The notes under the pieces were generated by a model that saw nothing but the letters and a program-made list of their open reading frames with translations, was not told the DNA's origin and did not search any database. Below are positions 985 through 17,652 of a stretch of DNA of 64,000 bases, piece by piece. The DNA is from Corynebacterium matruchotii (GTDB taxonomy: Bacteria > Actinomycetota > Actinomycetes > Mycobacteriales > Mycobacteriaceae): NCBI RefSeq assembly GCF_011612265.2, contig NZ_CP050134.2:2542001-2606000 (forward strand), in the 5' to 3' direction. How positions within the stretch are numbered: the stretch's first letter is position 1; each line of letters starts with the position of its first letter. Position numbers and translations under genes: made by a program.

Positions 985-1929
985 ATGATTCTTTCCGCCA
1001 CCGATAAAGTCGCCGCTGTTGTTGTCACCCATAACCGGGTAGAACTCTTGAGATCCTCCCTGGAAGTGGTAGCGCAACAAAGCCGACCAGTGCACTGGAT
1101 TATTGTGGTGGACAACGGCGCCGACCCGGCCGTCGAAAAGCTCCTTGCTGAGATCGCCGGCGACCGGGGCATATATCTGCCCAGCAAAACCAACCTTGGT
1201 GGCGCTGGCGGATTCGCATACGGATTCCTGGTTGCGCTCGCACAGGGCGCCGACGCCGTATGGTGCGCCGACGACGACGGCCGGCCCGAAGGCCCCGACG
1301 TGCTCGCCACCCTCCAGGACTGCGCGGTCCGACACAACCTGGCCGAGGTGTCGCCCGTAGTCTGTAACCTCGACAACCCCGACCGCCTTGCGTTCCCACT
1401 CCGCCGGGGGCTGGAATGGCGCCGCCTCCGCAGCGAACTCACCGACCCGCGCGGCACCGAAGTCGGCGACACTGCCAACAACCTGGGCGACGACCTCCTC
1501 CCCGGCATCGCCTCCCTCTTCAACGGGGCCCTCATCTCCACGCGAGCCATGGAGGTTATCGGCATCCCCGACTATCGACTGTTCATTAGGGGTGACGAGG
1601 TGGAATACCACCGACGATTACACCGATCCGGACTTCCCTTCGGCACCTGCCTCACCACTGCCTACCTGCACCCGGACGGGTCCGAAGAATTCCGGCCCAT
1701 CCTCGGCGGGAAAATGCACACCCAATACCCGGAGAATCCCGGAAAACGATTCTTCACCTACCGAAACCGTGGCTACCTCATGAACCAGCCCGGCATGCGC
1801 CGCCTCCTGCCGCAAGAATATGCCCGATTCGGCTGGTTTTTCCTGGTGCAGCAAAAAGACCCCAAAGGTTTCTGGGAATGGCTGAAACTCCACCGGTTAG
1901 GCCGCAAAGAGCGATTCTTCCGGCCATAA
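985..1929 (+). CDS. glfT1: GlfT1-like galactofuranosyltransferase (GT2)
   Basis: A 314-residue GT-A glycosyltransferase. It opens with VAAVVVTHNRVELLRSSL, continues with NLGGAGGFAYGF, and has the acidic CADDDGRP motif (about residues 93-100) that binds Mn and UDP-galactofuranose. Length and motifs match the Rv3782/GlfT1 family, which adds the first galactofuranose residues to the decaprenyl-linked linker of arabinogalactan at the cytoplasmic face. The rest of the arabinogalactan block lies downstream on the same strand, now separated by a repeat array and several genes. No good ribosome-binding site precedes ATG 985, so a leaderless mRNA is possible. The later HPDGSEEF segment and the family context support GlfT1 over a generic rhamnosyltransferase. 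Confidence 0.83.
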   Translation: MILSATDKVAAVVVTHNRVELLRSSLEVVAQQSRPVHWIIVVDNGADPAVEKLLAEIAGDRGIYLPSKTNLGGAGGFAYGFLVALAQGADAVWCADDDGRPEGPDVLATLQDCAVRHNLAEVSPVVCNLDNPDRLAFPLRRGLEWRRLRSELTDPRGTEVGDTANNLGDDLLPGIASLFNGALISTRAMEVIGIPDYRLFIRGDEVEYHRRLHRSGLPFGTCLTTAYLHPDGSEEFRPILGGKMHTQYPENPGKRFFTYRNRGYLMNQPGMRRLLPQEYARFGWFFLVQQKDPKGFWEWLKLHRLGRKERFFRP

Positions 1930-2096
1930 AGGCAAAGGTATAAATGTAAACAGCCTCGAACCCCACACCACAACCCCCGCGCTGTAATGCGCACTGTAAT
2001 GCGCCGACATGGTGCGGGGTTTATGGTTGATGATCTTGATTACGCTGCTGCAGAAACCCAGGACCCAAGGCCCTTGGCTGTAGGTAGCAGGTTAGA

Positions 2097-3390
2097 TAAG
2101 CATGGTTTCTGTCCTGAGGCCAAGTCGGCTCCTGCAGGTTTGAACTGCGACCAGTAGGAAACCATGCTTAGAACAAGTGCTGCTACTTGAGTTACCCACG
2201 AATCCTGGCTGCATAAGTTCTAAGCATGGTCTTTAATTCTGGGGCGTGTTGGCTCTTGGGGGTTTGATGTGGTGATTTTTGAAAACCATGCTTATCTAAT
2301 CTGCTACCCCCAAGATGCCGTATGCAGCACACCTGATAAGCATGGTTTCTGTTCCGATGGTGTATCGGCTGAGGCATTGTCGGTGGGAAACCATGCTTAG
2401 AACATGTCCTAGGGGCTGGTCCGCCATATACTTAGCTGCCGCACATGTTCTAAGCATGGTCTTTGCCTGGCGAGCGTATTGACTCCAGGGGACTTGATGG
2501 GCCAGATCTCAAACACCATGCTTATCAGATATGCTGCTCATGATTATTGGTACTGCCCTAATACTCTCGGCAATATAGCAAGTTAGATAAGCATGGTCTT
2601 TGATTGTGGTTGGATGCTTGTCCAGCAGGTTTGAGCTGGCCTGTTTTAAAGACCATGCTTATCAAGTGTGCAGCCCACAGCCCCTTGGGGGTAGCGGATT
2701 AGATAAGCATGGTTTTGTTCTGATTGGCGTATTGATCCCAGGGGATTGAACTGCCACCGATAGAAGTCCAAGTTTAGAACATGTGCTGGTGATGTCCCAC
2801 CCACCCACTTGGCTGCCGCACATGCTCTAAGCATGGTTTCCACTCTAGGGGTATGTTGGCCCTTGGGGGTTTAGGGTGGCAGATTTTGAAAACCATGCTT
2901 ATCAGACATGAAGCCCCAGTCATTCCGTCTGGTAGCACAAGCCCTGAGCTTGACTTCACACTCCCTCCCGCCTAACTCCCAGTAGGTAAGATCTTTGCTA
3001 CCCCAAACCCCAGCTCAACATCAGCACAGCACAACCCCTAAACCACAAAACCCCCTCCAGGTGCCCTGGAAGTTCACCCTTTTGAACGAAACCAAGCTTA
3101 GAGGAAATGCTACAGCAACCCAGAGCAGCGCTGCACATGCTCTAAGCATGGTTTCCATTCCGGGGGCGTACTGACTCCTGGAAGTTGAACTGTCATCAAT
3201 AGAAGTCCAAGCTTAGAACATATGCGGCAATCAGGTGTCTCGGCGACCAGCCCCTAGCACATGTTCTAAGCATGGTCTTTCCCTAGTAAGCACATTGGCT
3301 CCAGGGGATTCAGGCCGGCAGCCCTCAAACACCATGCTTATCAAGTGTGCTACGCGCGGGTGCAGCAGGAGCACGGTCGCTAAGCTTGAG
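2097..3390. repeat. Array 1 of alternating inverted repeats (TAAGCATGG / CCATGCTTA)
   Basis: No gene is supported between 1930 and 3410. The stretch holds about ten pairs of a 9-mer alternating between the two orientations. TAAGCATGG occurs at 2097, 2221, 2337, 2451, 2588, 2704, 2828, 3143 and 3267. CCATGCTTA occurs at 2162, 2286, 2391, 2516, 2653, 2893 and 3332, with variants at 2768, 3092 and 3207. Arms extend variably (TAAGCATGGTTTC with GAAACCATGCTTA; TTAGAACATGTGC with GCACATGTTCTAA), so each arm can pair with either neighbour. Segments within loops recur too, for example CCAGGGGA. A 42-bp stretch at 2703-2744 is identical, in reverse complement, to 16393-16434 in array 2. A unique spacer at about 2905-3090 also has an inverted counterpart in array 2. 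Confidence 0.9.
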
Positions 3391-3410
3391 GTCCACCCGA
3401 CATTCGGCCC

Positions 3411-4673
3411 TCAATCAATGCTGATGGCGCGCACACGCCGGTTCGTCAGGGCGCATACCACCATGGCGGCGTGCACTGCGACAATGATGAGCAGGATGGT
3501 TCGATATGGATCGATCCCTGTTGTGGGCTGGTGCCGAGCAAGCGTGTCGGCAACCACACCCCAGAGGGGAACGGCCAAGGCGCCCACCGCACCGACAACA
3601 CTGATGAACACCGACATTGCCTGGCCGACCTTTTCGGATGGAACAGCCTGGACGAAGATTGTTTGGAATGGTGGGTTGAGCACCCCTTGGCTCGTCGCAA
3701 AGCTAAAACCGACAACCACGGCAACCAGGGCGGAATCCGTCACCGAAATGATGGCTAGGAGGAGACTGACCGCAAGATTACTGAGCGCCAGGAGCTTGAA
3801 GAACCTCATGCGCTCCGACAACCACGGGGCGGCGAGGTAGCCTATCGCATAACCAGCGGCAACCAGGGCATTCCACACCCCATACCAGGTGGCCGAAACA
3901 TGCAGCGTGGCGGTGAAAAAATAAATGGCCACCATGCTCAACGCCGACGAACTGACAGCCTCCAGGATCGCAAAGGGCAGCATCACCCGGTAGCTTTCCG
4001 AACCGACCATGGCGCGGAGCCCGGCTTTCCACGCGAGCCAAAACCCCTCAGCGAGCCCGGCGGTTTGTCGGCTCATACTGTGGCGAATGGGCGCGAGAAT
4101 CAGCGCCGCCACGAGCAATGCCACGGTTTCCAGCGCCATGGTGCCGGCAAACCAACCCCGATCAGCACCAATACCAGCCAAAATTGGCCCCGCCATGGAC
4201 CCCAGCAAGGCGAAAAACCGCAACCAGCCGAGCAGCCGCACAAGCTCCTGGCCGTCCGCCAATCGGTGGGAAACCGACGCGGCGGCCGGCAAATAGGCTG
4301 TGTCACACATGGCCTCGATGACGGCAAGGGCAATGACCGCTAGAACGGCCGCCAAACCCCCGGTCGGGCAGAAGACCAGGATCGCAATAATCCCGGCGCT
4401 CGCAACCGCCCGCACCAGGCATGCCATGGTCATAGTGGCTATCGGGTCGTGGCGGTCCGACACCGCGCCCGTGAACAGCCCGGCGAGCAGCTGGGCAACC
4501 GCGATGACGGTCAGGAACCCGCTCACCCACGGCACGGAACGTTCCTCGCCAAACACCGCAAGAACGAACCACAGGCTAATGATCTTCGCCGCCAGCGATG
4601 TGGCCAGGTTAGACAGGAAGTCGCTGCAGAGGAGTCGCCACACCAGATGCTTTTTACCGCCAATTATGGTCAT
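3411..4673 (-). CDS. MFS transporter, probable drug or metabolite exporter
   Basis: A 420-residue protein that is almost entirely hydrophobic, with about 12 membrane segments. The loop GAVSDRHDP between TM2 and TM3 matches the MFS signature GxxxDRxxR. It belongs to the MFS_3-like group of 12-TM exporters. It starts at ATG 4673 (MTIIGGKKHLVW). The 3' end lies about 20 bp from repeat array 1, and it sits inside the block bracketed by the inverted arrays. The substrate cannot be told from sequence. A tiny + strand transcription unit lies just upstream, at 4781-4865. Confidence 0.8.
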   Translation of the reverse strand: MTIIGGKKHLVWRLLCSDFLSNLATSLAAKIISLWFVLAVFGEERSVPWVSGFLTVIAVAQLLAGLFTGAVSDRHDPIATMTMACLVRAVASAGIIAILVFCPTGGLAAVLAVIALAVIEAMCDTAYLPAAASVSHRLADGQELVRLLGWLRFFALLGSMAGPILAGIGADRGWFAGTMALETVALLVAALILAPIRHSMSRQTAGLAEGFWLAWKAGLRAMVGSESYRVMLPFAILEAVSSSALSMVAIYFFTATLHVSATWYGVWNALVAAGYAIGYLAAPWLSERMRFFKLLALSNLAVSLLLAIISVTDSALVAVVVGFSFATSQGVLNPPFQTIFVQAVPSEKVGQAMSVFISVVGAVGALAVPLWGVVADTLARHQPTTGIDPYRTILLIIVAVHAAMVVCALTNRRVRAISID

Positions 4674-4780
4674 TGCCGTCCTTCATGCTGAGTTTTTCGA
4701 CGCCAACCCGGCTCCCCTCCCACCCTATTGCACACAATGCGACTCGTACAAAAAACCATTCCATAAATGGAGTACTCGAC

Positions 4781-4819
4781 ATGACGAAAGGAGGTGGTCT
4801 ATACGACATCATGACCTAG
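4781..4819 (+). CDS. possible 12-residue leader-like peptide or small-RNA unit
   Basis: ATG 4781 opens a 12-codon frame (MTKGGGLYDIMT, stop TAG 4817-4819). A GGAG at 4769-4772 lies 8 nt upstream, and a perfect intrinsic terminator follows 15 nt after the stop. A second strong Shine-Dalgarno-like AAAGGAGGTGG lies inside the frame. The unit is divergent from the MFS gene. It could encode a peptide or simply be a small RNA; I do not recognise it, and coding is unproven. Confidence 0.3.
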   Translation: MTKGGGLYDIMT

Positions 4820-4834
4820 AACATTGATACCTTG

Positions 4835-4865
4835 CCTAAACAGCCAAAACGGCTGTTTAGGTTTT
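4835..4865 (+). terminator. intrinsic terminator
   Basis: Perfect 11-bp stem CCTAAACAGCC / GGCTGTTTAGG with loop AAAAC, followed by TTTT on the + strand. No T-run follows on the minus strand, so it should end a + transcript, the only candidate being the small unit at 4781. Confidence 0.88.
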
Positions 4866-4913
4866 CTCCGGCAACAGGGCATGATCCGACCGCGGGAAGC
4901 GTCGATAAGCGGG

Positions 4914-5435
4914 CTAGCGTTGTTTAAAAATAAATGCCCGCTGCATGACAAAGTTCGTCACGGTAGCCACGCCTTGGGCGATGACGAAGGAAATCGTGTC
5001 CACGACGAACTTGGGCAGCTCGAAGGAGTGCAGCGGCATCGGCACCACCTTGTACAGAATGTTTTGAACGGCAAACGTGGACAGGTACAGGATGGCCACG
5101 GCCACGGTTGCCTTCGCAGAAGTTTTCGAATTGAACGTCCATTTTGCATTCATAAAATAGGCCGATGTGGTGCCAGCAACCCACCCCACGGCTTTAGCCC
5201 ACCCCCGGGGCACCCCCAACACATAGTCCAGTAGCAAGGTTGTGCCGTAGTCGATAACGGCGCACACCACGCCCACCGCAATGAACCGGACAAGCTGGGT
5301 GCGCAGCGAACCATCGGACTGGGACTGCTGTGCCGGCTGCGGCGATGCCGACGATGCTGGTTGCGTAGGCTGTTCGGGCGATTCGGAAGGCATGGATGCT
5401 GAAGTGGTAGGAGTGCCTGGTGGGGTTGCTGTCAT
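4914..5435 (-). CDS. GtrA-family membrane protein (Rv3789-like)
   Basis: A 173-residue protein with an N-terminal Pro/Ser/Gln-rich tail of about 45 residues, then four membrane helices typical of GtrA (LVRFIAVGVVCAVIDYGTT, then AKAVGWVAGTTSAYFMNAKW, where the N-x-x-W-T-F element is the family signature). In mycobacteria the GtrA protein Rv3789 lies beside dprE1 and has been linked to arabinan synthesis, either in decaprenyl-phosphate-arabinose handling or as an anchor for AftA. The position here, near dprE1-dprE2-aftA, supports that role. Unlike in M. tuberculosis it is transcribed away from dprE1, with another gene between. Confidence 0.85.
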   Translation of the reverse strand: MTATPPGTPTTSASMPSESPEQPTQPASSASPQPAQQSQSDGSLRTQLVRFIAVGVVCAVIDYGTTLLLDYVLGVPRGWAKAVGWVAGTTSAYFMNAKWTFNSKTSAKATVAVAILYLSTFAVQNILYKVVPMPLHSFELPKFVVDTISFVIAQGVATVTNFVMQRAFIFKQR

Positions 5436-5446
5436 AAGCCACCAGG

Positions 5447-6538
5447 TTACAGGCGGAGCAGTTCCCGGTAAATCTCAATGCGCTCCACTGGGGACGATAA
5501 CCCCCCAATATCCCGCAAATGTTTCAGCGAGTTTGGGCACAGCGCACGCACCTCGTTCGCTGTTTTGTTCCAACCGAGGGCCTGCACAATGCTTTCAATA
5601 ATCGCATCGGTCACTTCCTCATCGCTCATGCAGCTGAGCCCCAGGACCACCGCCCAAAACGCATCCTGCTGCACCGGGTCTTCCTCCACCGGCAGCACCG
5701 CACACATCATGGCAACCTCCGGGTCGATGTCGGGGGTGCGGGAAAAATCAATGGCCTGCAGCAGCGGCACAAAGTCCAAAATGCCGGAGCGCCGAATCAG
5801 GTTAGCGGGCTCGGGTCGGGTGCGTCCCAGCACGGTTTCGATGGTTTCGGCGCCGGTGAGCCGGGTGTTGATCCTTGTGAGGTCGAAGCTGTCCTGGCAG
5901 GTGGCACATAACCGCATGCGATCTATGGCGCCGGAATTGCCGGCGGGGGCAGCGCTCGGGTTGCCGTGGGCGTCAACGGCGCCCACAAACCCAGAAGCAA
6001 CCGACGCGCCGGGGCCGCCGGGGGTGCCGGGGCCGCCAGGGGGACCGGAACCACCCGGACCACCAGGACTACCGCCCGGCCCGCCGGCGTCACCATCGTA
6101 GAAATCGTCGAAATCGTCGTGGTCATCGAAGTCGTCAAACAGGAGATCCGCCATGGACCCAAAACCGCCTACACATAATGCGGTGGGGGTACCATTATCA
6201 CGGGCGATAATTTCAATAAGTTGAATACGGATTTGCCATAAACCCACCACACAATGAAATTCATCACCATCGGCTTGTAAATGCTCCCATAATAAACTGT
6301 CGGGATCTAAGGTAGTACCCCCGAAGTTGCAACAATAACGGTCGAATTCTGGGTTATCGAGGTCGAAGCAAATCGTAATGATGTTATAGAATTCCGCCAC
6401 CGTTACGGCGCTATCAACACCGATATGGCGGATAATCTCGTGGTCGGTGGATACAACCTGAGCTTGGATTATCAGCGTTGACTGCGCATAGGTAGCTGCC
6501 GCAGTGCCGCTACGGCTACTACTTACTGGGGTGGACAT
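5447..6538 (-). CDS. pRiA4b ORF-3-like domain protein with collagen-like Gly-Pro linker
   Basis: Start chosen at ATG 6538 (MSTPVSSSRSGTAAATY), because the longer frame begins with 93 residues of implausible composition; this gives 363 residues. Residues about 20-135 read like the plasmid pRiA4b ORF-3 fold (AEFYNIITICFDLDNPEF, then a long loop, then LWQIRIQLIEI). An acidic stretch (DDFDDHDDFDDFYDGD) leads into a run of about 30 residues of GGPGGSPGG-type collagen-like triplets. A C-terminal helical domain of about 140 residues opens with a CATC pair that could bind metal. The last part resembles the helical tail sometimes fused to pRiA4b domains. Function unknown. It is separated by only 11 bp from the GtrA gene on the same strand and is probably co-transcribed with it. 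Confidence 0.65.
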   Translation of the reverse strand: MSTPVSSSRSGTAAATYAQSTLIIQAQVVSTDHEIIRHIGVDSAVTVAEFYNIITICFDLDNPEFDRYCCNFGGTTLDPDSLLWEHLQADGDEFHCVVGLWQIRIQLIEIIARDNGTPTALCVGGFGSMADLLFDDFDDHDDFDDFYDGDAGGPGGSPGGPGGSGPPGGPGTPGGPGASVASGFVGAVDAHGNPSAAPAGNSGAIDRMRLCATCQDSFDLTRINTRLTGAETIETVLGRTRPEPANLIRRSGILDFVPLLQAIDFSRTPDIDPEVAMMCAVLPVEEDPVQQDAFWAVVLGLSCMSDEEVTDAIIESIVQALGWNKTANEVRALCPNSLKHLRDIGGLSSPVERIEIYRELLRL

Positions 6539-6718
6539 GGTACCCACAGTAGTGGCGAAAAATGAAAATTGCCGAAACAGTCTGAGAATTACACAAAAGA
6601 AACATGTGTTATCACTCTTGCTTACGGGGTTAAATGGGGGCAATTTTATGGCGGCTTTCCGCCGAGCTTTTCGACGCTTTTTGCCCATGGTTTCCCACCA
6701 CCAGATAGCATATACATC

Positions 6719-6943
6719 ATGTTTGGCCTGTTTAAGAAGAATATTTCCCCTGACCATGCCGCCGCGGATCACACAAATCTGCCGCTCGACAATTTTATGA
6801 CAACCCTTATGGCACAAGAGCTACCATTCTTGGATTCCGCATCACGTATTCGGGTGTATGAGATTCTCAACACTTATGATGGACCAACCATCACTAGCCA
6901 GGAAGAATTACCCACAGAGATCCGTGAACTCATGGACCTATAG
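6719..6943 (+). CDS. small hypothetical protein
   Basis: Starting at ATG 6719 (MFGLFKKNISPDHAAADH) the frame gives 74 residues with a natural, non-repetitive composition and a charged C-terminus (PTEIRELMDL). AT-rich sequence TATACAT lies immediately upstream, so a leaderless transcript is possible. It is divergent from the pRiA4b-like gene and 220 bp upstream of dprE1. No family recognised. Confidence 0.5.
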   Translation: MFGLFKKNISPDHAAADHTNLPLDNFMTTLMAQELPFLDSASRIRVYEILNTYDGPTITSQEELPTEIRELMDL

Positions 6944-7163
6944 TCCCACTCATCCGCCCATTTATGAGTGATACGTCACGTTCTGCTGTGTGCTACCCCT
7001 CGAAACGGGGAGGAAATCCGAAATCAGACAGCAGGCGAGCTGAGGTGATCTCGCTTTCATGCTCCCGCTTACCCAGTAGTCAAACCCAAAAAATAGGTAG
7101 GGTTGAGCGTGAGAAAAATTTGAACTTAACCCAAGAAGCATAGAGAAGGTGGGCCAGACCCGA

Positions 7164-8591
7164 ATGACGCAACGTCCAAACCTTTCCACAACCACACAGA
7201 AACTCACCGGTTGGGGCCGGACCGCCCCCACCACCGCCCAGGTGCTTGCCACCCCGGACGTGGAAGAGATTGCTCGTGCGGTTGCCCTGGTGGCAGAATC
7301 CAACGCCGATAAACCCGACTACCTCAAGCGGGGTGTGATCGCCCGGGGCATGGGCCGCTCCTATGGCGACCCGACCCAAAACGCTGGCGGCCTGGTCATT
7401 GACATGCAGCCGGTGAATCACATTCACTCCATCGACCCGGAGACCGCCATTGTCGACGTGGATGGTGGTGTCACTCTCGACCAATTAATGAAGGCCGCCC
7501 TGCCGTATGGCCTGTGGGTTCCGGTGCTGCCGGGCACCCGCCAGGTCACCATTGGTGGCGCCATTGGTCCTGACATTCACGGTAAGAACCACCACTCTGC
7601 CGGCTCCTTCGGTGACCATGTGGTGTCGATGGAATTATTGGTTGCCGACGGTCGGATCCTGCATCTTGAGCCGGAAGGCACCCCCGATGATCCTAAGGGT
7701 GACCTGTTCTGGGCCACCGTTGGTGGCATGGGGTTGACCGGCATCATTCTGCGGGCCCGCATCAAGATGACCAAGACCGAGACCGCCTACTTCATTGCCG
7801 ACGGCGACCTCACCGCCAACCTGGATGAAACCGTGGCCTTCCACTCGGATGGTTCCGAGCATAACTACACCTATTCGTCTGCCTGGTTCGATGCGATTTC
7901 CCCGGAGCCGAAGCTGGGCCGGGCCGCTATTTCCCGTGGTTCGCTCGCCACCTTGGCCCAGTTGGAGGAGTTGGCACCGAAGCTGGCCAAGGAACCCCTG
8001 AAGTTCAATGCTCCCCAATTGGTGACGGTGCCGGATATTTTCCCCTCCTTCACCATGAATAAGCTCAGCATGATTGCCATTGGGGAATTGTGGTGGCTCA
8101 AGTCGGGCACCTATAAGAACAAGGTGCAAAACCTCACCCAGTTCTACCAGCCACTCGACCTCATTGGGGAGTGGAACCGTGGCTATGGCTCCAAGGGATT
8201 CTTGCAGTACCAGTTCGTGGTGCCCACCGATGCGGTGGAGCCGTTCAAGGAGATTGTGCGCGATATTCAGCGTTCCGGCCACTATTCGGCCCTGAACGTG
8301 TTCAAGCTGTTTGGTCCGGGTAACCGTGCCCCCTTGTCGTACCCGATGCCGGGCTGGAATGTGTGCGTGGACTTCCCGATCAAGAAGGGCCTGGGCGCAT
8401 TCTTGGATGATCTGGACCGTCGGGTCATGGAGTTTGGTGGCCGACTGTATTTGGCTAAGGAGTCCCGTACCTCCGCCGAGAACTTCCATAAGATGTATCC
8501 AGGTTTGAAGGATTGGTTGAAGTTGCGGCACGAGATCGACCCCACCGGGGTGTTCGCCTCCGATATGTCCCGTCGACTGGAACTGAACTAA
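7164..8591 (+). CDS. dprE1: decaprenylphosphoryl-beta-D-ribose 2'-oxidase DprE1
   Basis: A 475-residue FAD-dependent oxidoreductase of the VAO/PCMH fold that, with DprE2, epimerises decaprenylphosphoryl-ribose to decaprenylphosphoryl-arabinose, the only arabinose donor for arabinogalactan. The FAD-binding half has [16 protein letters not shown] and [19 protein letters not shown]. The C-terminal half holds the [11 protein letters not shown] segment, whose cysteine (residue 401 here) corresponds to the Cys attacked by benzothiazinones in mycobacteria. I chose ATG 7164 because GAGAAGG precedes it at a usable distance; a GTG at 7149 in the same frame is the alternative. It is followed after 23 bp by dprE2. 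Length agrees with the family (about 460). Confidence 0.96.
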
Positions 8592-8614
8592 CAAGAAAGG
8601 CATGTGAAGTAAAA

Positions 8615-9382
8615 ATGTTGAACGCTGTGGGTCAAGCCCAAAGTATTCTATTGCTCGGCGGCACCTCGGAGATCGGCCTAGCTATCGTCACGGAGTTTCT
8701 GTCGAAGGGCCCGGCCAAGGTGGTGTTGGCTGCTCGGAAGAATTCGCCCCGGCTTGACAACTCTGTCGCCTTGGTGAAGGCCGCCGGCGCCTCCGAGGTT
8801 GAGGTCATTGATTTCGACGCCACCGATTTCGCCAACCATCCGAAGGTCATTGACAAGGCGTTTGCCGGTGGCGACATCGACATCGCTATCGTGGCTTTCG
8901 GCACCCTGGGCGACCAGGAGGCCCTGTGGCACGACCAGAAGCTGGCCGTGGAGTCGGCGCAAACCAACTTCACCGGCCCGGTGTCGGTGGGTGTGCTGTT
9001 GGCGGAGAAGTTCCGGACTCAGGGCCACGGCAATATTATTGCGCTGAGTTCGGTGGCTGGCCAGCGGGTTCGCCGGTCGAATTTTGTGTATGGCGCCGCC
9101 AAAGCCGGCATGGATGGTTTCTATGTGAACCTGGGCGAAGCCCTGCGCGATGTCGGCGTGAATGTGTTGGTGGTTCGGCCGGGTCAGGTGCGCACCAAGA
9201 TGTCCACCGTTGCTGGTGAGCCCGAGGCCCCGTTGACCGTGAATAAGGAAGATGTGGCCAAGGCGGTTGTTGACGCCGTGGTGTCGCATAAGGAAGCAAT
9301 CTTCGTGCACCCGTTGTTCCAGCCGGTGTCGTTGGCGTTTAAGGTGATTCCGCAGAAGATTTTCCGTAAACTGCCGTTCTAA
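8615..9382 (+). CDS. dprE2: decaprenylphosphoryl-2-keto-beta-D-erythro-pentose reductase DprE2
   Basis: A 255-residue short-chain dehydrogenase that uses NADH to reduce the DprE1 product to decaprenylphosphoryl-arabinose. The nucleotide-binding motif is LLLGGTSEIG (about residues 12-21) and the catalytic YxxxK is YGAAK (Y159, K163), preceded by the SSVAG serine. Length equals that of mycobacterial DprE2. It starts at ATG 8615 after GAAAGG. It lies directly downstream of dprE1 and is certainly in the same transcript; a hairpin follows before aftA. Confidence 0.96.
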   Translation: MLNAVGQAQSILLLGGTSEIGLAIVTEFLSKGPAKVVLAARKNSPRLDNSVALVKAAGASEVEVIDFDATDFANHPKVIDKAFAGGDIDIAIVAFGTLGDQEALWHDQKLAVESAQTNFTGPVSVGVLLAEKFRTQGHGNIIALSSVAGQRVRRSNFVYGAAKAGMDGFYVNLGEALRDVGVNVLVVRPGQVRTKMSTVAGEPEAPLTVNKEDVAKAVVDAVVSHKEAIFVHPLFQPVSLAFKVIPQKIFRKLPF

Positions 9383-9421
9383 CCGGTTTTCACCGGTTTT
9401 AAGCCGTCTTAAAGGTTTTCC

Positions 9422-9473
9422 GCCCCCGTTTGAGGATATTCCTAGCGCAGCTAGGAATGTTCGAGGGGGCTTT
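9422..9473 (+). terminator. stem-loop between dprE2 and aftA
   Basis: Inner perfect stem ATTCCTAGC-GCA-GCTAGGAAT (9438-9458) is enclosed by GCCCCC / GGGGGC (9422-9427 and 9465-9470), then CTTTGTC. It is a likely terminator or attenuator ending the dprE1-dprE2 transcript, possibly partial because aftA follows within 30 bp. Confidence 0.6.
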
Positions 9474-9502
9474 GTCATGAGCAATGTGAAAGACTAGTGA
9501 GT

Positions 9503-11524
9503 ATGACTTTAACGGAATCAGGTCAACGGGACTTCGTTGATACCTCACGGTTACAGGAATATGGTCCCGATGTCTTGAGCACCCCCCGCACCGTCGTCGG
9601 CATTATTGCCGCAGCTCTAGGCGGTGCGGTCTTCACGCTGGGGTGCTGGTTTGCGTTGAAAACCACGCACCTGCCGGCCTTTGGGCCCTCCAATGTGACT
9701 AAGGCTGTTGGCACGTTTGGGACCGTGCTGGTCTTGCTCACGGTGGCCGGGCTCACCCTATTGTGGGTGTTGGATGAGAAGAAGCAACAACCGCACCCCC
9801 GGTGGCGCACCTGGATCACCTATGTGGTCAGCTACCTGTCCCCCGCCGCATTGATCGTCACCACTTTGGCCATTCACTTGGCGGCCACCCGGCTGTATTT
9901 GGATGGCATCACGGTGGACCAGGGATTCCGCACCCAGTTCATGACCCGCATGGCCGACGGTTGGGGCCTGTCGGACATGAACTATATTGACATGCCTACC
10001 TTCTACCCGGCCATGTGGTTTTGGTTCGGGGGCCGGCTGGCAAACCTCTTGGGCATACCGGGCTGGGAGGTGTTTCAGCCGTGGGCGTTGATATCCCTGG
10101 CCGCCGCCGGCTCCACCCTGGTGCCGGTGTGGCAACGGCTGGTGGGCAGCCTGCCGGTAGCCACCGCCATTGCCCTGGTCAGCACGTGCGTCACCCTGGT
10201 GATGAGCGCCGAGGAACCCTATGCCGCCATTATTTCCCTGGGCGTGCCGGCCGCCGTGGTGGCCGCCCGCCGGGCATTGGTGGGTCGGAACATGGCCATG
10301 GTGGGGTTGATTGTCTACCTGGGGTGTTCGGCGTCGTCCTATACCTTATATACAGCGGTGGTAGCGCTCAGCACCATGGTGATCGCCGCTCTGTTCTCGG
10401 GGGTGGTGTTGAAGTCGATAACCCCCATCATCCGATTGGTCATTATCGGGGTGGGGTCCATGGCGATCGCGGCCATTTGGTGGGCGCCCTACTTCCTGGC
10501 CATTCTTCAGGGGCGCCCGGTGTCGGGGGCGACCGCCTCGCATTATCTTCCCCTGGAGGGCACGCGGGTGCCACTGCCCATGTTGGCGCCGTCGGTGATT
10601 GGGCTGTTATGCCTGATCGGCCTGGTGTATTTGATTGTGCGGTCCAGTAATTATGATGTGCGCATGCTGGGGGTGGCGCTGTTGGTGTTCTACGGCTGGG
10701 TGGCGCTCTCTATGGTGTTTACCCTCATAGGGTCGACGCTGCTTGGGTTCCGCATGGATGTGGTGATTGCCACTACCTTGGCGACGGCCGGCGTGTTGGG
10801 CGTGGCCGAGCTGCGGATTTATGCGATCCACCAGTGGTTATTCCCCCAAGAGTTCGATGTGAAGACGTCGCGGATGATTACCTGCGTATTCCTGGCAATC
10901 CTCATGGTGGGCGGCCTCAGCTATGCGCAAAACATTCCGAACCAGAATGCGGACCCGATTGAGCGGGCATATTCGGACACGGATGGTTATGGGGAACGGG
11001 CCGACCGGTATCCGCCGGATTCTACCCAGTACTACAAGCAGGTGGCGGAGTTCATCGACAAGCACATGGGGTTACAACGCAATGAAACCGTGGTACTCAC
11101 GGACGAATTAAACTTCATGTCGTATTACCCATACCGGGGTTTCCAGGCGTTTACCAGCCACTATGCCAACCCACTGGGGGAATTTGATGTGCGCAACCAA
11201 ACGATTACGGAGTGGGCATTGGGCAGTTGGGAAAACGCCAACACACCCGAAAAATTCTTGGCAAAAATGCTGGAGGCAAAGTGGCGAGCCCCGCAGGCAT
11301 TCGTGTTCCGGGCGGACCTGGAATCCTATAAGCAGGACAAAGCCGCAGGTAAAGACAGCAGCGGGTGGGTGTATGACCTGGCCGAAGACATTTACCCGAA
11401 TAATCCCAATGTGCGGTTCCACGGGCTCCGGTTCAACCCGGAAGTGTTCGTGGGCGACGGCACGGAGTGGGAAGTCAAACAGATTGGCCCATTTGTGGTG
11501 GCAGTACGAAGCTTCGCGAGATAA
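9503..11524 (+). CDS. aftA: arabinofuranosyltransferase AftA (GT85)
   Basis: A 673-residue polytopic membrane protein with about 11-13 predicted segments and a soluble C-terminal domain of about 180 residues facing the periplasm (from about residue 490). It primes the galactan by transferring the first arabinofuranose from decaprenylphosphoryl-arabinose. The aromatic-rich DMNYIDMPTFYPAMWFW segment in an outer loop is characteristic of the GT-C fold of AftA. I chose ATG 9503, since GAAAGA is about 10 nt upstream; GTG 9497 in the same frame is closer than usual. It lies between dprE2 and emb, exactly as in mycobacteria. Confidence 0.93.
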   Translation: MTLTESGQRDFVDTSRLQEYGPDVLSTPRTVVGIIAAALGGAVFTLGCWFALKTTHLPAFGPSNVTKAVGTFGTVLVLLTVAGLTLLWVLDEKKQQPHPRWRTWITYVVSYLSPAALIVTTLAIHLAATRLYLDGITVDQGFRTQFMTRMADGWGLSDMNYIDMPTFYPAMWFWFGGRLANLLGIPGWEVFQPWALISLAAAGSTLVPVWQRLVGSLPVATAIALVSTCVTLVMSAEEPYAAIISLGVPAAVVAARRALVGRNMAMVGLIVYLGCSASSYTLYTAVVALSTMVIAALFSGVVLKSITPIIRLVIIGVGSMAIAAIWWAPYFLAILQGRPVSGATASHYLPLEGTRVPLPMLAPSVIGLLCLIGLVYLIVRSSNYDVRMLGVALLVFYGWVALSMVFTLIGSTLLGFRMDVVIATTLATAGVLGVAELRIYAIHQWLFPQEFDVKTSRMITCVFLAILMVGGLSYAQNIPNQNADPIERAYSDTDGYGERADRYPPDSTQYYKQVAEFIDKHMGLQRNETVVLTDELNFMSYYPYRGFQAFTSHYANPLGEFDVRNQTITEWALGSWENANTPEKFLAKMLEAKWRAPQAFVFRADLESYKQDKAAGKDSSGWVYDLAEDIYPNNPNVRFHGLRFNPEVFVGDGTEWEVKQIGPFVVAVRSFAR

Positions 11525-11537
11525 CGCAAGGTAGAAG

Positions 11538-14500
11538 ATGGATAACGTAGACGAGAAACAGAGCGATACCCCAATCGACCCGCAAGTCGCGCCCGAGGCA
11601 AGCGACGCTTTGCGACGCCAAGTGTGGCGGCAAAACGCCATGTTACGACGGGTGGCCGCCATCAGCGGTGTGGTGGGATTTGTGCTTTTCATGCTCACCC
11701 CATTCATGCCAGTGGACCAGGTGCAGTCCTCCCTGACCTGGCCGCAAAACGGGAACCTCAATAGCGTCAACGCACCCCTGGTGTCGTACGCACCGGAAAA
11801 CCTTGATATCACGGTGCCGATCTCCGCGCTGAAATCCCTGCGTGAGGACGAAACCACGGTGGTGAGCACCCTGCCGTCGACAAGCGAAAAAGCGACCGAA
11901 CGTGGCCTGTTCGTGCGCTCCGACAAGGGCGCGCTGGACGTAGTGCTGCGGGATAACGTGTTCTTCCAAATGGATGCCGAGGAAGTGGCCGCCCTGCCGC
12001 GGGATGCAGTGCTGAAAATCCACTCGGGGTTGAAGGAAACCTGGGTGGAAATTCCCGGCGCCACCGACGCCAACGGTCAGCCGCTGCGCAAGGCCAACGA
12101 CAAAAAGGACGATAAAGAAGATCTGCGCCCCCAAATTTCCGGCATTTACACCGAGCTGACTGGGGATGCGGAGCCGCTCATCCGGGCTGGGCTCAATGTG
12201 CAGGTGGAGATCAATTCCCGCTACACCTCCTCCCCCACCGTGCTGAAATATTTCACCATGATCGGCGGGGTGTTGTGCACCCTGGTGGCGTTGTGGGCGC
12301 TGTTCCGCATTGACCGGTTGGATGGTAAGGGCCGGTATCCGTTCTGGCCGAAGGGTTTTTTCCGGCCGCGCCCTTTGGATGGCCTGGTGGCCGGGGTGTT
12401 GGTGCTGTGGTATTTCTTCGGGGCGAACACGTCGGACGATGGGTTTATTTTGACCATGGCCCGGGTGTCGTTGGAGTCGGACTATATGGCCAACTATTAC
12501 CGGTGGTTTGGGGTTCCCGAATCCCCGTTCGGTGCGCCCTATTATGATTTCCTGGCGTTAATGACCCGGGTGTCGACCGCATCCACGTGGATGCGGCTGC
12601 CGTCGCTGGTGGCTGGCTTGTTGATCTGGCTGATTGTGTCCCGGGAGGTGCTGCCGCGCCTGGGTGCGGGGATTGCCGCCCGTAGGGCTGCGCATTGGAC
12701 GGCGGCGCTCATGTTTTTGGCGTTTTGGCTTCCCTATAATAATGGTTTGCGCCCGGAGCCGATCATTGCGTTGGGCACGTTGACCGCCTGGGTGTCGTTC
12801 GAACGTTCCATCGAGCAGAAGCGGTTGACGCCGGCGGCTATTGGCACGATCATTGCGGCGTTCACCTTGGCGTGTGGCCCGACCGGCCTGATGGCGGTGT
12901 CGGCGTTGCTAGTGACGTTGTCGAGCCTGATTCGGATCATGAACCGGTGGTTGGACTATTTTGGGGTGACGGAGGATTCCACCCGGTGGCAGCGGATCAG
13001 CGGGTGGACGGCCATGTTGGCGCCGTTTATGGCGGCCGGCACGTCAGTGTTCATTGCCGTGTTCGGGGATCAAACGTTGGCGAATGTGCGGGAGTCCACC
13101 TATGTGCGTGCGGATAAGGGCCCGTCGCTACAGTGGTTCCAGGAGTGGGTGCGCTACGAGGTGCTGTTCCAGCAGGAGGTGGATGGGTCGTTCTCCCGCC
13201 GGTTTGCGGTGTTGATTGCGTTCATGAGCATTGTGTTTGTGTTCGCGTCGATGCTGCGGAACGGTAAGGTGCCGGGGTCGAGCCGGGGCCCATCGCTGCG
13301 GCTGATGATGATTTTCATCGGCACCCTGTTCTTTATGAGTTTCACCCCGACGAAGTGGACCCACCACTTTGGGGTGTGGGCCGGTATCGCGGCGGCCCTG
13401 GGTGGCCTGGGGGCGATTGCTTTGAGCGAGTTCGCTAACCGGTCGCGGCACACCCGCACCCTGGTGTTGGGTGGGTTGTTGTTTATGTTTGCGTTCGCCC
13501 TGTCGGGCACGAACGGCTGGTGGTATGTGTCCAGTTACGGTATTCCGTGGTGGGATAAGTCCATCCAGTTCAAGGCGATTGAGGCGTCCACGGTGGTCAT
13601 GGTGATTTCCGTGATTGTGCTGCTGGTTGGTATTGTGCAATCGTTCCGGGTGGGGTTGGCCACGGAGTTGGATGATGCGTCGGCAGCCTATAAGAAGGCG
13701 GATCGGAAACCCAGCCGGTTTACGTTATTATTCTCCGCCCCGATTGCGGCGTTTTGCCTGGTGGCGATCCTGTTTTCCATGCTGTCGTTCGCAAAAGCGT
13801 TTATCACCCAGTATCCGGCGTATTCGGTGGGATTGGGGAATATGAACAGTGTTGTGGGGAAGACCTGTGGCCTGGCGGATTATGTGCTGGTGGAGACAAA
13901 CACGAACGAGTCGTTCTTGAAGCCGCTCACCAGTAAGTTGGGGGATTCCCTCCAGGTGGATAAGAAAACCCGGGGTTTTGAGCCGGATCGGATTCCCCAA
14001 TTGGGGAGCGACCAGCTGCCGGATCTGGTGAGTGCGGGGGATCGCCTAAATGTGGAGGGTGGCCGCAGCACCACGAAGGGTGTGAATGGTTCGAAGTGGG
14101 TGTTGCCGTTTAACCTGGATCCGGCGAAGGTGCCGGTGATGGGCTCGTATACGGTGGGCCGCCAATATTATGCGCAGATCACCACGGACTGGTATGACTT
14201 GCCGAAGTCTACGCCGGAGGCGCCACTGATTGTGGTGTCGGCGGCGGGCATTATTGAGGGTGTTGACGCTGATGGTGTCACCCAGGAGGGCCGGAAGTTG
14301 CTGTTGGAGTACGGCAAGAAGAATGCTTCCGGTGGGGTGGATAAGTTGGGTGAAACCCAGATGCTGGATATTGGCCCGAAAAAGAAGTGGCGTAACCTGC
14401 GGCTTCCCATTGATGATCTGCCGAAGGATGCGGATGCGGTGCGTATCTATGCTGAGGATGATTCGCTCGACCCGGAGCAGTGGCTGGTGGTGACGCCGCC

Positions 14501-14933
14501 GCGGGTGCCGAAGCTGGATTCGTTGAATTCGGTGGTTGGCAGCACGGAGCCGGGGTTGTTGGACTGGTCGGTGCCGTTGCAGTTCACGTGCCAGCGGCCG
14601 TTTAGCCACTATGCGGGTGTTGCGGAGATTCCCACGTTCCGTATCCTGCCGGACTATAAGGGGAAGCGTTCAGGCGCCAGCTTCGAGGATTATCATGGCG
14701 GTGGTGTGTTGGGCACCGCGGAGTCCGTGAATTATTCCTATGAGTTGCCGGGTTATGCCAAGGATGATTGGTTGCGTGACTGGGGTTCCCTGGAACTCTA
14801 TGCGTTGCGCCCGAATTCGCAGGGCCAGACGCCGGATGTGGCGCGCATTGACCGGACCACGAAGACCCGGTGGGGTTGGTGGTCGCCGGGGCACCAGAAT
14901 ATTGATACGGATAAGAAGGATTATTTGAATTAG
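11538..14933 (+). CDS. emb: arabinosyltransferase Emb (GT53), target class of ethambutol
   Basis: A 1131-residue GT-C glycosyltransferase extending arabinan with alpha-1,5-linked arabinose. It has an N-terminal TM, a periplasmic jelly-roll-like domain (about residues 50-220), a long multi-TM region, and a large C-terminal carbohydrate-binding region (about 770-1131). The catalytic Asp pair lies in ANTSDDGF (D300, D301), equivalent to D299 of M. tuberculosis EmbC. Corynebacteria carry one Emb, mycobacteria three. It starts at ATG 11538 behind AAGGTAG, 13 bp after aftA. A terminator follows the stop. Confidence 0.95.
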   Translation: MDNVDEKQSDTPIDPQVAPEASDALRRQVWRQNAMLRRVAAISGVVGFVLFMLTPFMPVDQVQSSLTWPQNGNLNSVNAPLVSYAPENLDITVPISALKSLREDETTVVSTLPSTSEKATERGLFVRSDKGALDVVLRDNVFFQMDAEEVAALPRDAVLKIHSGLKETWVEIPGATDANGQPLRKANDKKDDKEDLRPQISGIYTELTGDAEPLIRAGLNVQVEINSRYTSSPTVLKYFTMIGGVLCTLVALWALFRIDRLDGKGRYPFWPKGFFRPRPLDGLVAGVLVLWYFFGANTSDDGFILTMARVSLESDYMANYYRWFGVPESPFGAPYYDFLALMTRVSTASTWMRLPSLVAGLLIWLIVSREVLPRLGAGIAARRAAHWTAALMFLAFWLPYNNGLRPEPIIALGTLTAWVSFERSIEQKRLTPAAIGTIIAAFTLACGPTGLMAVSALLVTLSSLIRIMNRWLDYFGVTEDSTRWQRISGWTAMLAPFMAAGTSVFIAVFGDQTLANVRESTYVRADKGPSLQWFQEWVRYEVLFQQEVDGSFSRRFAVLIAFMSIVFVFASMLRNGKVPGSSRGPSLRLMMIFIGTLFFMSFTPTKWTHHFGVWAGIAAALGGLGAIALSEFANRSRHTRTLVLGGLLFMFAFALSGTNGWWYVSSYGIPWWDKSIQFKAIEASTVVMVISVIVLLVGIVQSFRVGLATELDDASAAYKKADRKPSRFTLLFSAPIAAFCLVAILFSMLSFAKAFITQYPAYSVGLGNMNSVVGKTCGLADYVLVETNTNESFLKPLTSKLGDSLQVDKKTRGFEPDRIPQLGSDQLPDLVSAGDRLNVEGGRSTTKGVNGSKWVLPFNLDPAKVPVMGSYTVGRQYYAQITTDWYDLPKSTPEAPLIVVSAAGIIEGVDADGVTQEGRKLLLEYGKKNASGGVDKLGETQMLDIGPKKKWRNLRLPIDDLPKDADAVRIYAEDDSLDPEQWLVVTPPRVPKLDSLNSVVGSTEPGLLDWSVPLQFTCQRPFSHYAGVAEIPTFRILPDYKGKRSGASFEDYHGGGVLGTAESVNYSYELPGYAKDDWLRDWGSLELYALRPNSQGQTPDVARIDRTTKTRWGWWSPGHQNIDTDKKDYLN

Positions 14934-14944
14934 TCCTTCGCTTG

Positions 14945-14972
14945 ACGACGCTCACCTCCCGGTGGGCGTCGT
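14945..14972 (+). terminator. intrinsic terminator after emb
   Basis: 12-bp stem ACGACGCTCACC / GGTGGGCGTCGT (one G-T pair) with a TCCC loop, 11 bp after the emb stop, followed by TCCGCTTC. It is the probable end of the cell-wall operon. Confidence 0.75.
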
Positions 14973-15076
14973 TCCGCTTCTCCCACCCCATCTGCCTGCC
15001 CGCGCCTGCCAGCCCACATCTGCCCCCCTCTGTGCGCCTACCCCCTGCCCCCCTGCCCCCGGCGCTGCACATGTTC

Positions 15077-16701
15077 TAAGCTTGGTTTCCCATTTCTATG
15101 TCCACCAGCTCCTGGGGGTTTGCCGCCTTTGCACAAAACACCATGCTTAGCAAACCTGCGACCCTCTTTGAAAACGGTAACGCCACAGCACCGCCTAGGG
15201 CTTCATACCTTCTAAGCATGGTTTTCAAAATCTGCTGCCCCAACCCCCCAGGAACCGACATGCCCGCCAAGGAAAGACCATGCTTAGAACATATGCAGCA
15301 GTTAGATAGGCGAGTGGACCAGCCCCTAGCACATGTTCTAAGCTTGGACTTCTATTGGTGGCAGTTCAACCTGGAGGAGTCAGTACACCCTCGGAACGGA
15401 AACCATGCTTATCTAATCTGCTGCCCCAAGGTACCGTATGCAGCATACATGCTAAGCATGGTGTTTGAGTCTTGCCGTCCCAAATCCCCTGGAACTGACA
15501 TGCCCTCAGGGTGGAAACCATGCTTAGAACATATGCAGCGCCGCCCTGGGTTGCCGTAGCATTTCCCCTAAGCCTGGTTTCGTTCAAAAGGGTGAACTTC
15601 CAGGGCACCCGGAGGGGGTTTTACAGCTTAGGGGTTGTGCTGCCAGGCGGGATGAATATGGCTTCATGTCTGATAAGCATGGTGTTTGAGGACTTCCAGC
15701 CTGAATCCCCTGGAGTCAATGTGCTCGCCAGGGAAAGACCATGCTTAGAACATGTGCAGCAGTCCGGTATGCGGGTGGGCCAGCCCCTAGCATATGTTCT
15801 AAGCTTGATCTTCCATTGGCGACAGTTCAAACTCTCAGGAGTCAGTACGCCCCCAGAACGGAAACCATGCTTATCTAATCTGCTGCCCCTAAGGCGTCTC
15901 GTGCAGCATACATGCTAAGCATGGTTTTTAAAATCTGCCGCCCTAAACTCCCAGGAACTAACACTCTCTCGGGATGGAAACCATGCTTAGAGCATGTGCA
16001 GCGCTACCCTGGGTTGTTGTAGCTTTTCCTCTAAGCTTGGTTTTTGTTTAAAAGAATGGATTTTCCGGGGTGCCTGGAGGGGGTTTTGCGGTTTAAGGGG
16101 TTATACTGCGCTGATGTTGAGCTGGGGTTTGGAGTAGCAAAGATCTTACCTACTAGGAGTTAGGCGGGAGGGAGTATGAAGTCAAGCTCAGGACTTGTGC
16201 TACCAGGCGGAATGACTAAGGCTGCATGTCTGATAAGCATGGTGTTTGAAATCCGCCACCCCAAATCCCCTGGGAACAACATGCCCCCGGAGCGGAAACC
16301 ATGCTTAGAACATTTGCAGTAATCAGGTGCACAGATCAGCCATCACCAGCACATGTTCTAAGCTTGGACTTCTATCAACGACAGTTCAAAATCCCCTGGG
16401 ATCAATACGCCAATCAGAACAAAACCATGCTTATCGAATCTACTACCCCCCAATAGCTGCGGCAGACCACCCAAGCAGCAAACCTTCTAAGCATGGTGTT
16501 TACTCTGGGAACGCGTCGACTCCTAGGGGTTCAAGGTGGCGGTTTCCAAACACCATGCTTAGAACATATGCAGCCCACAGCTGCATAAATGCACATCCAC
16601 CAGCACTCCTCCTAAGCTTGGGTTCTGGTTTTGGCGCATTGCCGTGCCCAGATCGGTGTCGCCGTATTGCCGTATTGCCGGTCTCCCGGAACCCAAGCTT
16701 A
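15077..16701. repeat. Array 2 of alternating inverted repeats, inverted copy of array 1
   Basis: No gene is supported from 14934 to 16719. The same alternating 9-mers occur, often with the HindIII-like variant TAAGCTTGG (15077, 15340, 16031, 16359, 16613), alongside TAAGCATGG (15211, 15452, 15673, 15917, 16489) and CCATGCTTA between them. Read on the opposite strand the array follows array 1: 16393-16434 is identical over 42 bp to the complement of 2703-2744, and 16060-16215 corresponds to about 2905-3075. Part of the array (about 15570-15670 versus 16030-16220) also looks internally duplicated. The last unit (16613-16701) has a perfect 13-bp arm pair, TAAGCTTGGGTTC / GAACCCAAGCTTA, and ends 18 bp from the next gene. 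Confidence 0.9.
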
Positions 16702-16719
16702 AGGGTGGGGTGCCGGAGG

Positions 16720-17652
16720 TTATTGCGTCGAAAAGCCTTCGGGGGGTTGGACACCGGGCATGACCTGCGTGGCGGGGGGCGCATCGGGCGCAGGCTCTTC
16801 CAGGGAGGCCAACGGCAAGTGGGGAACCGTGATGGGGCCGCTACCTTCGGTTTTGATTTGGCGGACGCAATGCACCCAGCACGACAGGAATGTGCCGTAG
16901 AGCACGATGGCAACACCAACCCACCACACGATCTGGAGGTTTCCGGCGGAAATGATGGTGTTCCAGGCGAAGTGGAGGAGAAAACTCGTCCCCAAGCCAC
17001 CGAACATGTATGCTAATCGCTTGCGCATGGGAATGTCGGCAAGGTAAATGGCATAGCCGATCGCTAGCCCGGAAATCGCCGTCAAACACATGTGCAGGCC
17101 AGGACCGGCAACCGTGCGATATCCCCACACGGATAGGGCACCATCCACATCCGAATTCGGGTCAATCATCGCCCCGAAGCTCCCATAGACTATGTTTTCG
17201 AAAGCTTCGAAACCCAGGCCCACCATGCCGCCGACCACGAACCCGTGCCATGGCCTGCTGAATCGCTGCGACACAATGAGAATAAGGGCGACACCTAAGA
17301 GTTTGGAAATTTCTTCCGGGTAGGCCCCGCCAAGGGCGGCCTCGAAAAACATCAGGTTGAGCCGCTTCAGCACCGTGCTAATGGGCGAGCCGATCACCGA
17401 CACCACCCCAACCGAGGCGCACCCACCCCAAAGTAGGCAGGTCAGGTACCATTTCCAGTTGAGTTCTTCCGGCCACATGGGCGATACCCGAAAAATTGCG
17501 GTGCCGACTATCAGGTAGGCGATGAATCCGGCCAGGTTGATAAGGCTTACCGGCGCGTCCACCAGGAAGGCGCTCATGCCGATGCTGAATAGTGAGACGA
17601 TCACCCCAAGGACCACGCTGACCAGCAGCACGGTTTTTCCGTAACGCAGCAT
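16720..17652 (-). CDS. PrsW-family intramembrane metalloprotease
   Basis: A 310-residue polytopic protein with about 8-9 membrane segments and the PrsW motifs in order: EEISKLLG (EExxK), FEAFEN (FExxEN) and H in GLHMCLTAISGL. These residues coordinate zinc in the membrane. In Bacillus, PrsW cuts the anti-sigma factor RsiW; in actinobacteria substrates are mostly unknown. The Pro-rich C-terminal tail is cytoplasmic and low complexity. The ATG at 17652 overlaps the TAA of the upstream gene (TAATG), implying translational coupling with the membrane protein encoded at 17652-18437. Confidence 0.87.
   Translation of the reverse strand: MLRYGKTVLLVSVVLGVIVSLFSIGMSAFLVDAPVSLINLAGFIAYLIVGTAIFRVSPMWPEELNWKWYLTCLLWGGCASVGVVSVIGSPISTVLKRLNLMFFEAALGGAYPEEISKLLGVALILIVSQRFSRPWHGFVVGGMVGLGFEAFENIVYGSFGAMIDPNSDVDGALSVWGYRTVAGPGLHMCLTAISGLAIGYAIYLADIPMRKRLAYMFGGLGTSFLLHFAWNTIISAGNLQIVWWVGVAIVLYGTFLSCWVHCVRQIKTEGSGPITVPHLPLASLEEPAPDAPPATQVMPGVQPPEGFSTQ

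Follow-up and report, generated by a model that had tools for sequence, protein, structure and literature searches.

Two inverted arrays beside the arabinogalactan genes of Corynebacterium matruchotii belong to a lineage-specific family of paired repeats, candidate protein platforms near the origin

What are the two long repeat arrays that bracket an arabinogalactan gene block in Corynebacterium matruchotii? They lie in a window of 64,000 bp (positions 2,542,001-2,606,000 of a single-contig genome of 2,866,540 bp, labelled G000), and an earlier note on this DNA had proposed that they might be a genomic inversion switch or the trace of an old duplication. We find that array 1 and array 2 (Table 1) each represent one cluster within a lineage-specific family of short inverted repeats. 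Our leading interpretation, held tentatively, is that these repeats act as protein platforms on duplex DNA near the origin.

Each half-site spans 28 bp (GGCWGCANNTGTNC plus TNAGCNNNNNTTN), and two half-sites facing each other make one element: a 13-bp core (TNAGCNNNNNTTN), a middle and an inverted core. Most elements are 62-75 bp long, and their outer flanks are of type GGCWGCANNTGTNC. An iterated matrix located 263 half-sites in 22 loci; within the window, positions 20,001-64,000 hold none. Orientation alternates in 199 of 226 neighbouring pairs (pairs at most 130 bp apart). Judged by a codon-usage score for open reading frames, two clusters overlap weak frames, one stray cluster of two hits lies inside a frame, and the others are intergenic. 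The window contains 38 copies of CTAAGCATGGT with at most one mismatch, where shuffles give an expectation of 0.94, and 36 of the 38 fall inside arrays 1 and 2. Element model R2 recognized 22 elements at E ≤ 2.7e-5, 10 of them in array 1 and the other 12 in array 2 (4 of the 22 being training sequences); three further matches were weak (E 0.18-0.6). Tandem Repeats Finder reported neither array.

At which level is the repeat kept intact, the half-site or the pair? Across 98 elements drawn from 12 loci, the two arms agree at core position 2 in 91, compared with 73.8 in within-array shuffles (0 of 5,000 as high). Half-sites that face each other across a linker match at this position in 50 of 81 cases, which is below the expected 58.3. 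Among 43 aligned elements, 8 of the 13 core pairs have changed in both arms (a count reached in 17 of 500 shuffles), and the core covariation score was equalled by none of 500 shuffles; 86.9% of the cells in the 13-bp core are standard pairs. Arm identity within elements is also raised in G189, the second genome with the family (0.803 versus 0.731 shuffled; 5 of 2,000 as high). Because its two cores match each other, it is the element that is copied or kept. We rejected the flanks as part of a longer hairpin, since they do not covary (195 of 500 shuffles as high). The elements fold with a mean z of about -3 on both strands, and the middle lacks a folding signal (mean z about 0). What the middle does hold is CCWGG, found in 44 of 70 long elements versus 6.3 in shuffles and within 0.5 bp of the dyad centre in 40 of those 44; short elements have it in 5 of 33 cases (2.2 in shuffles). 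The motif therefore sits at the dyad of most long elements, about three turns from each core.

How are the half-sites laid out along the DNA? The centres of neighbouring half-sites are spaced in classes near 21, 52, 63, 73, 84, 95, and 105 bp, each near an integer multiple of a period of about 10.5-10.75 bp. With 10.5 bp taken as the helical repeat, phasing reached R = 0.84 over 134 pairs and R = 0.77 over the 66 pairs outside 61-65 bp. Because the arrays are related by copying, we also used a non-redundant set of intervals less than 60% identical to one another; at 10.5 bp it gave R = 0.64 (n = 28, p ~ 9e-6) and, minus the 50-54 and 61-65 classes, R = 0.55 (n = 17, p ~ 0.006). Non-redundant pairs from G189 gave R = 0.69 (n = 28), which we rejected as independent confirmation because it comes from the 50-54-bp class alone.

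Where on the chromosome does the family occur? Used as a query against its own genome, array 2 gave 51 matches at many places, and the matching regions examined are built of similar units. Part of array 2 resembles array 1 less than it resembles an array on the opposite side of dnaA (2,683,496-2,684,551), at a distance of 243 kb. A paired-core pattern with GG produced 57 forward matches, none of them beyond -198 kb on one side of dnaA or +328 kb on the other, and its reversed control produced none. As the zone of the elements this interval was too narrow, because it came from GG-core patterns: with model R1, arrays also turned up at 339 kb, 500 kb, and 2.217 Mb, and scored elements reach from about -560 kb to about +685 kb relative to dnaA, a zone around the origin that makes up ~43% of the chromosome. 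A genome-wide search with model R2 yielded 986 candidates (both strands counted), of which 150 were scored; every one of these matches the model, and their positions fall within 0.041-0.501 or 2.487-2.801 Mb. We also sampled the chromosome on a grid of 40 stretches of 15 kb, plus seven extra ones chosen in the origin half. Model R2 matched 6 of 20 origin-half stretches (498 kb and 2.122, 2.180, 2.238, 2.296, and 2.354 Mb; three of the elements at 498 kb are training sequences, whereas none of those at 2.122-2.354 Mb was in training) and none of 27 terminus-half stretches (0.556-2.079 Mb). Elements also occur in a stretch at 170-190 kb, chosen because the genome-wide search pointed there. Core variants differ mostly by zone: GG is the variant around dnaA, AT predominates on the left arm, and TG or TT predominates on the right arm; exceptions are AT cores near 106, 144, 2,786, and 2,800 kb. 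Likeness between arrays drops with distance (rho -0.29 for 66 long elements, 2 of 500 permutations as low), although the trend is not monotonic, as pairs more than 400 kb apart average 0.55 and those at 150-400 kb average 0.52. Duplicated elements and higher-order blocks occur within the arrays, some copies being inverted and some hundreds of kilobases apart.

Does the family extend to related species? Among the matches listed, under stricter filters, 2 of 242 genus genomes gave convincing matches: G000 and G189, a metagenome-assembled genome that is 53% complete. Single pattern matches in G038, G058, G149, and G164 were taken as chance (three genomes likewise matched the control pattern), and one model R1 match in G089, at E 0.007, disappeared with model R2. 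In 70 loci around dprE1 (L051-L120), model R2 found nothing at E ≤ 0.5. Aligned neighbourhoods of G000 and G189 contain five intergenic gaps with elements in at least one species, four of them occupied in one species and one in both; at the four single-species gaps, the species without elements has 24, 26, 71, and 216 bp in the aligned gap. Between the species, arrays thus differ as whole blocks. In G189, 79 bp of array flank (L253:4542-4620) recurs beside a second element 3.4 kb away, at the start of 1172-3495, a pattern consistent with an element having been copied together with its flank.

How, then, are arrays 1 and 2 related, and could they flip the genes between them? Both are present and inverted relative to each other, as the earlier note had it. 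The 42-bp identity it reported (2703-2744, the reverse complement of 16393-16434) extends to an exact match of 46 bp (2702-2747 / 16390-16435), and the shared unit order was recovered as an inverted collinear block (2647-3229 / 16502-15902). The proposed common spacer was probably located as well, although it scores as an element of another, divergent subtype; its copy at 16108-16200 was in the model training set and its copy at 2935-3027 was outside it. The collinear block, together with higher-order repeats inside array 2 (157-604 versus 618-1070 in array coordinates, 79% identity), supports an old duplication. The pair that had seemed special is real and related, but it makes up only 2 of 37 scored arrays in a far larger family. 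Recombination between the two arrays would invert the arabinogalactan block, and their inverted homology, including the 46-bp match, speaks for such a switch. That homology is imperfect, however, with no longer exact inverted match, and the better inverted partner of array 2 is the one 243 kb away. In 55 of 56 loci with both genes (a few not Corynebacterium), glfT1 is upstream of dprE1 on the same strand; the single exception is L070, from C. phoceense, where glfT1 is on the other side. The nearest relative by DprE1 (L120, 97%) has the gene order of the window with no array at either place: tblastn matches to glfT1 and GtrA lie ~112 bp apart there, and those to emb and PrsW ~127 bp apart. A switch is thus very improbable, and the inverted likeness of the arrays would, from their sequences, be a by-product of copying.

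If the arrays are not a switch, what might the family do? Many different intervals fall near whole turns, which suggests that the face of the duplex matters and, from this, that a protein is bound. Near-whole-turn spacing would put the sites on one helix face, where a topoisomerase, a nucleoid-associated protein, or a segregation protein would assemble side by side along the array duplex, much as gyrase and IHF bind the BIMEs of Escherichia coli. Given the confinement to the origin domain, the role of such a platform would be topological or chromosome-organizing, around the origin. Close behind this candidate platform, which remains the role we prefer, comes the possibility that the elements are merely good copiers: selfish or neutral REPIN- or MITE-like repeats with no host function, each a two-armed element copied by a transposase or through replication errors and spreading locally. 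Several results favour this alternative. Arms match within elements only, in G000 and also in G189; four of the five orthologous element-holding gaps are occupied in just one of the two species; array flank recurs beside another element in G189; likeness between arrays declines, if unevenly, with distance; and the family is nearly lineage-specific. The near-whole-turn spacing would then reflect the copying machinery or shared descent. Yet the genome holds no Y1/RAYT transposase, and target duplications were not seen in three empty/occupied pairs, whose flanks are ~73-87% identical and leave the junctions unfixed. Plain selfishness also predicts neither several near-whole-turn spacing classes nor a terminus half without scored elements.

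A quite unlikely alternative is that the elements work in RNA, as transcribed stem-loops at mRNA ends, terminators, or decoys. Folding on both strands and cores that covary as stem pairs would fit such hairpins, and a period of 11 fits the spacing nearly as well as 10.5; on the other hand, the middle lacks a folding signal, the flanks do not covary, no Rfam family matches at gathering scores, and the two strands are near-equivalent. Several of our results also weigh against a protein platform. Matched arms would be expected equally from hairpins, from a transposase that needs matched ends, or from quasi-palindrome correction. For one of five covariation measures, further pair types, 283 of 500 shuffles did as well as the real alignment, and by the tool's own warning relatedness among sequences can alone suffice to beat such shuffles. 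Among the non-redundant intervals (n = 28), R is highest at a period of 10.75 (0.67), with 0.65 at 11 and 0.64 at 10.5. Because 11 fits about as well as 10.5, B-DNA and A-form RNA are not distinguished by period, an ambiguity that led us to rate the platform and the stronger proposal below lower and the RNA and selfish alternatives higher. The p-values for spacing are approximate, as intervals share ancestry, and phasing in G189 outside the 50-54-bp class is not significant (n = 13, R = 0.42, p ~ 0.1). The boundary of the origin half was drawn after the matches were seen, and the matrix scored a lone half-site at 22.3 bits in the terminus half (975,024). Convergent-gene placement holds for both window arrays but was rejected as a general rule, because array neighbours overall are not mainly convergent. 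Under the same filters, 240 of the 242 genus genomes have no convincing match among those listed, so the family is not an essential organizer of the genus. Finally, the binding protein is hypothetical, as is the function proposed for the arrays. The stronger proposal of a new class of chromosome-organizing element, in which fast-evolving, almost species-specific, helix-phased arrays of paired sites with zone-differing cores mark the origin-proximal chromosome and are read on one face by a putative protein, is doubtful.

Which genes adjoin the arrays? Both arrays of the window lie between convergent genes (Table 1). Between the arrays, the earlier note had listed genes for MFS, GtrA, pRiA4b-like, DprE1, DprE2, AftA, and Emb proteins; all were borne out, as was GlfT1 outside the block, except for the pRiA4b-like assignment, whose profile score of 16.6 bits is below the Pfam cut-off of 26.6 bits. 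The MFS gene gave no tblastn match at 1e-8 in any of the 70 loci surrounding dprE1, and the gap at its place in L120 is ~112 bp; the gene and array 1 may have arrived in the same interval. The order of the window matches L120 and L052 on both sides. Of 16 loci with PrsW, 9 place it as in the window and on the same strand; for M13 the figure is 14 of 30. The downstream flank of the arabinogalactan block differs in the remainder (PrsW in 7 of 16, M13 in 16 of 30; L063, L067, L070, L072, L079-L090, L103, and L106), and because model R2 found no element in those loci, this border moves for other reasons.

Table 1. Arrays, array segments, and adjoining genes in the window (window coordinates unless marked otherwise)
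Feature	Position	Strand	Details
glfT1	985..1929	+	NF050113, 517 bits; left neighbour of array 1
Array 1	2087..3386	none	22 half-sites forming 10 scored inverted-repeat elements among them; flanked by the convergent genes glfT1 and MFS
Array 1 segment common to array 2, inverted	2647..3229	+	80% identity over 601 aligned bases
Probable shared spacer (divergent-subtype element)	2935..3027	none	Partner 16108-16200
MFS transporter	3411..4673	-	PF07690; right neighbour of array 1
Emb arabinosyltransferase	11538..14933	+	PF04602, PF14896, PF17689; left neighbour of array 2
Array 2	15067..16713	none	26 half-sites, 12 scored elements, internal higher-order repeats; between convergent emb and PrsW genes
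Array 2 segment with distant inverted partner	15076..15299	none	98% identical, inverted, to genome 2,800,422-2,800,644 (223 bp)
Array 2 segment common to array 1, inverted	15902..16502	-	80% identity over 601 aligned bases
PrsW-family protease	16720..17652	-	PF13367; right neighbour of array 2

A separate, dispersed motif occurs beside the arrays. The spaced 11-mer CGTCGNNAAGC has 34 sites in the window (e.g., 1131, 14940, 16726, and 21735), scattered in the manner of an uptake signal. In 405 kb of terminus-half samples it has 183 copies where 3.2 are expected, without clear strand bias (97 plus, 86 minus), and five single-substitution variants have one to nine copies each in the same samples. 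It exceeds expectation more than 20-fold in at least 30 of the 70 loci around dprE1, and a literature search of limited scope returned no description of it. Near the ends of the 37 G000 arrays, 20 of the 21 copies within 250 bp point outward (e.g., 14940 and 16726 in the window), as do 4 of 5 at 250-500 bp; farther out, orientation is mixed. These motifs, or the hairpins they form, may be where arrays tend to become established.

Does the family correspond to a known system? Array 1 gave no blastn match in phages and plasmids, and a 16-base pattern tried on viral contigs hit 43 stretches with one match each and no cluster. A literature search, judged by titles or the starts of abstracts and with subscription literature largely outside its scope, found no description of such repeats in Corynebacterium. 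The family shares terminal inverted repeats, here the 13-bp cores, with MITEs. It differs from CRISPR arrays, whose repeats are direct and near-identical with unique spacers, in that its half-sites alternate in orientation and vary. The parS/ParB and matS/MatP systems consist of short sites that occur in a single domain of the chromosome and whose protein is known. The present family is likewise confined to one domain, but its sites form arrays, occur in two of 242 genomes among the matches listed, and have a hypothetical protein partner.

The closest likeness is to interspersed palindromic repeats. A REP is an imperfect palindrome with a GTAG-type tag. In BIMEs, REPs are regularly spaced and alternate in orientation, and one report describes binding by gyrase and IHF (PMC2817692). 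The present family is similarly intergenic and high-copy, with regularly spaced inverted units of alternating orientation; it differs in its near-whole-turn spacing, measured here, in the placement of scored elements in the origin half, and in having no Y1 transposase. For the RAYT/Y1 transposase (PF01797), a search of G000 gave 0 matches and was positive in 5 of 14 control genomes. An ordered family (alternation, near-whole-turn spacing, covarying arms, domain confinement) without this transposase is well suited to deciding cleanly whether interspersed repeats in bacteria act as parasites or as architecture, and orthologous empty/occupied sites in two species, together with several spacing classes, make both readings directly testable. 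REPINs are described as RAYT-associated inverted REP doublets, proposed as the replicating unit, that are scattered at random through extragenic space and at times clustered; in SBW25 their two REPs are spaced at 71 or 110 bp (PMC3116915). Our family also has two inverted conserved ends and a spacer as its replicating unit, with matched ends and clusters, but it has no RAYT, builds arrays of up to 26 half-sites, and lies near the origin. Because the search for RAYT was negative, we call the family BIME/REPIN-like by its anatomy and not a member of either group.

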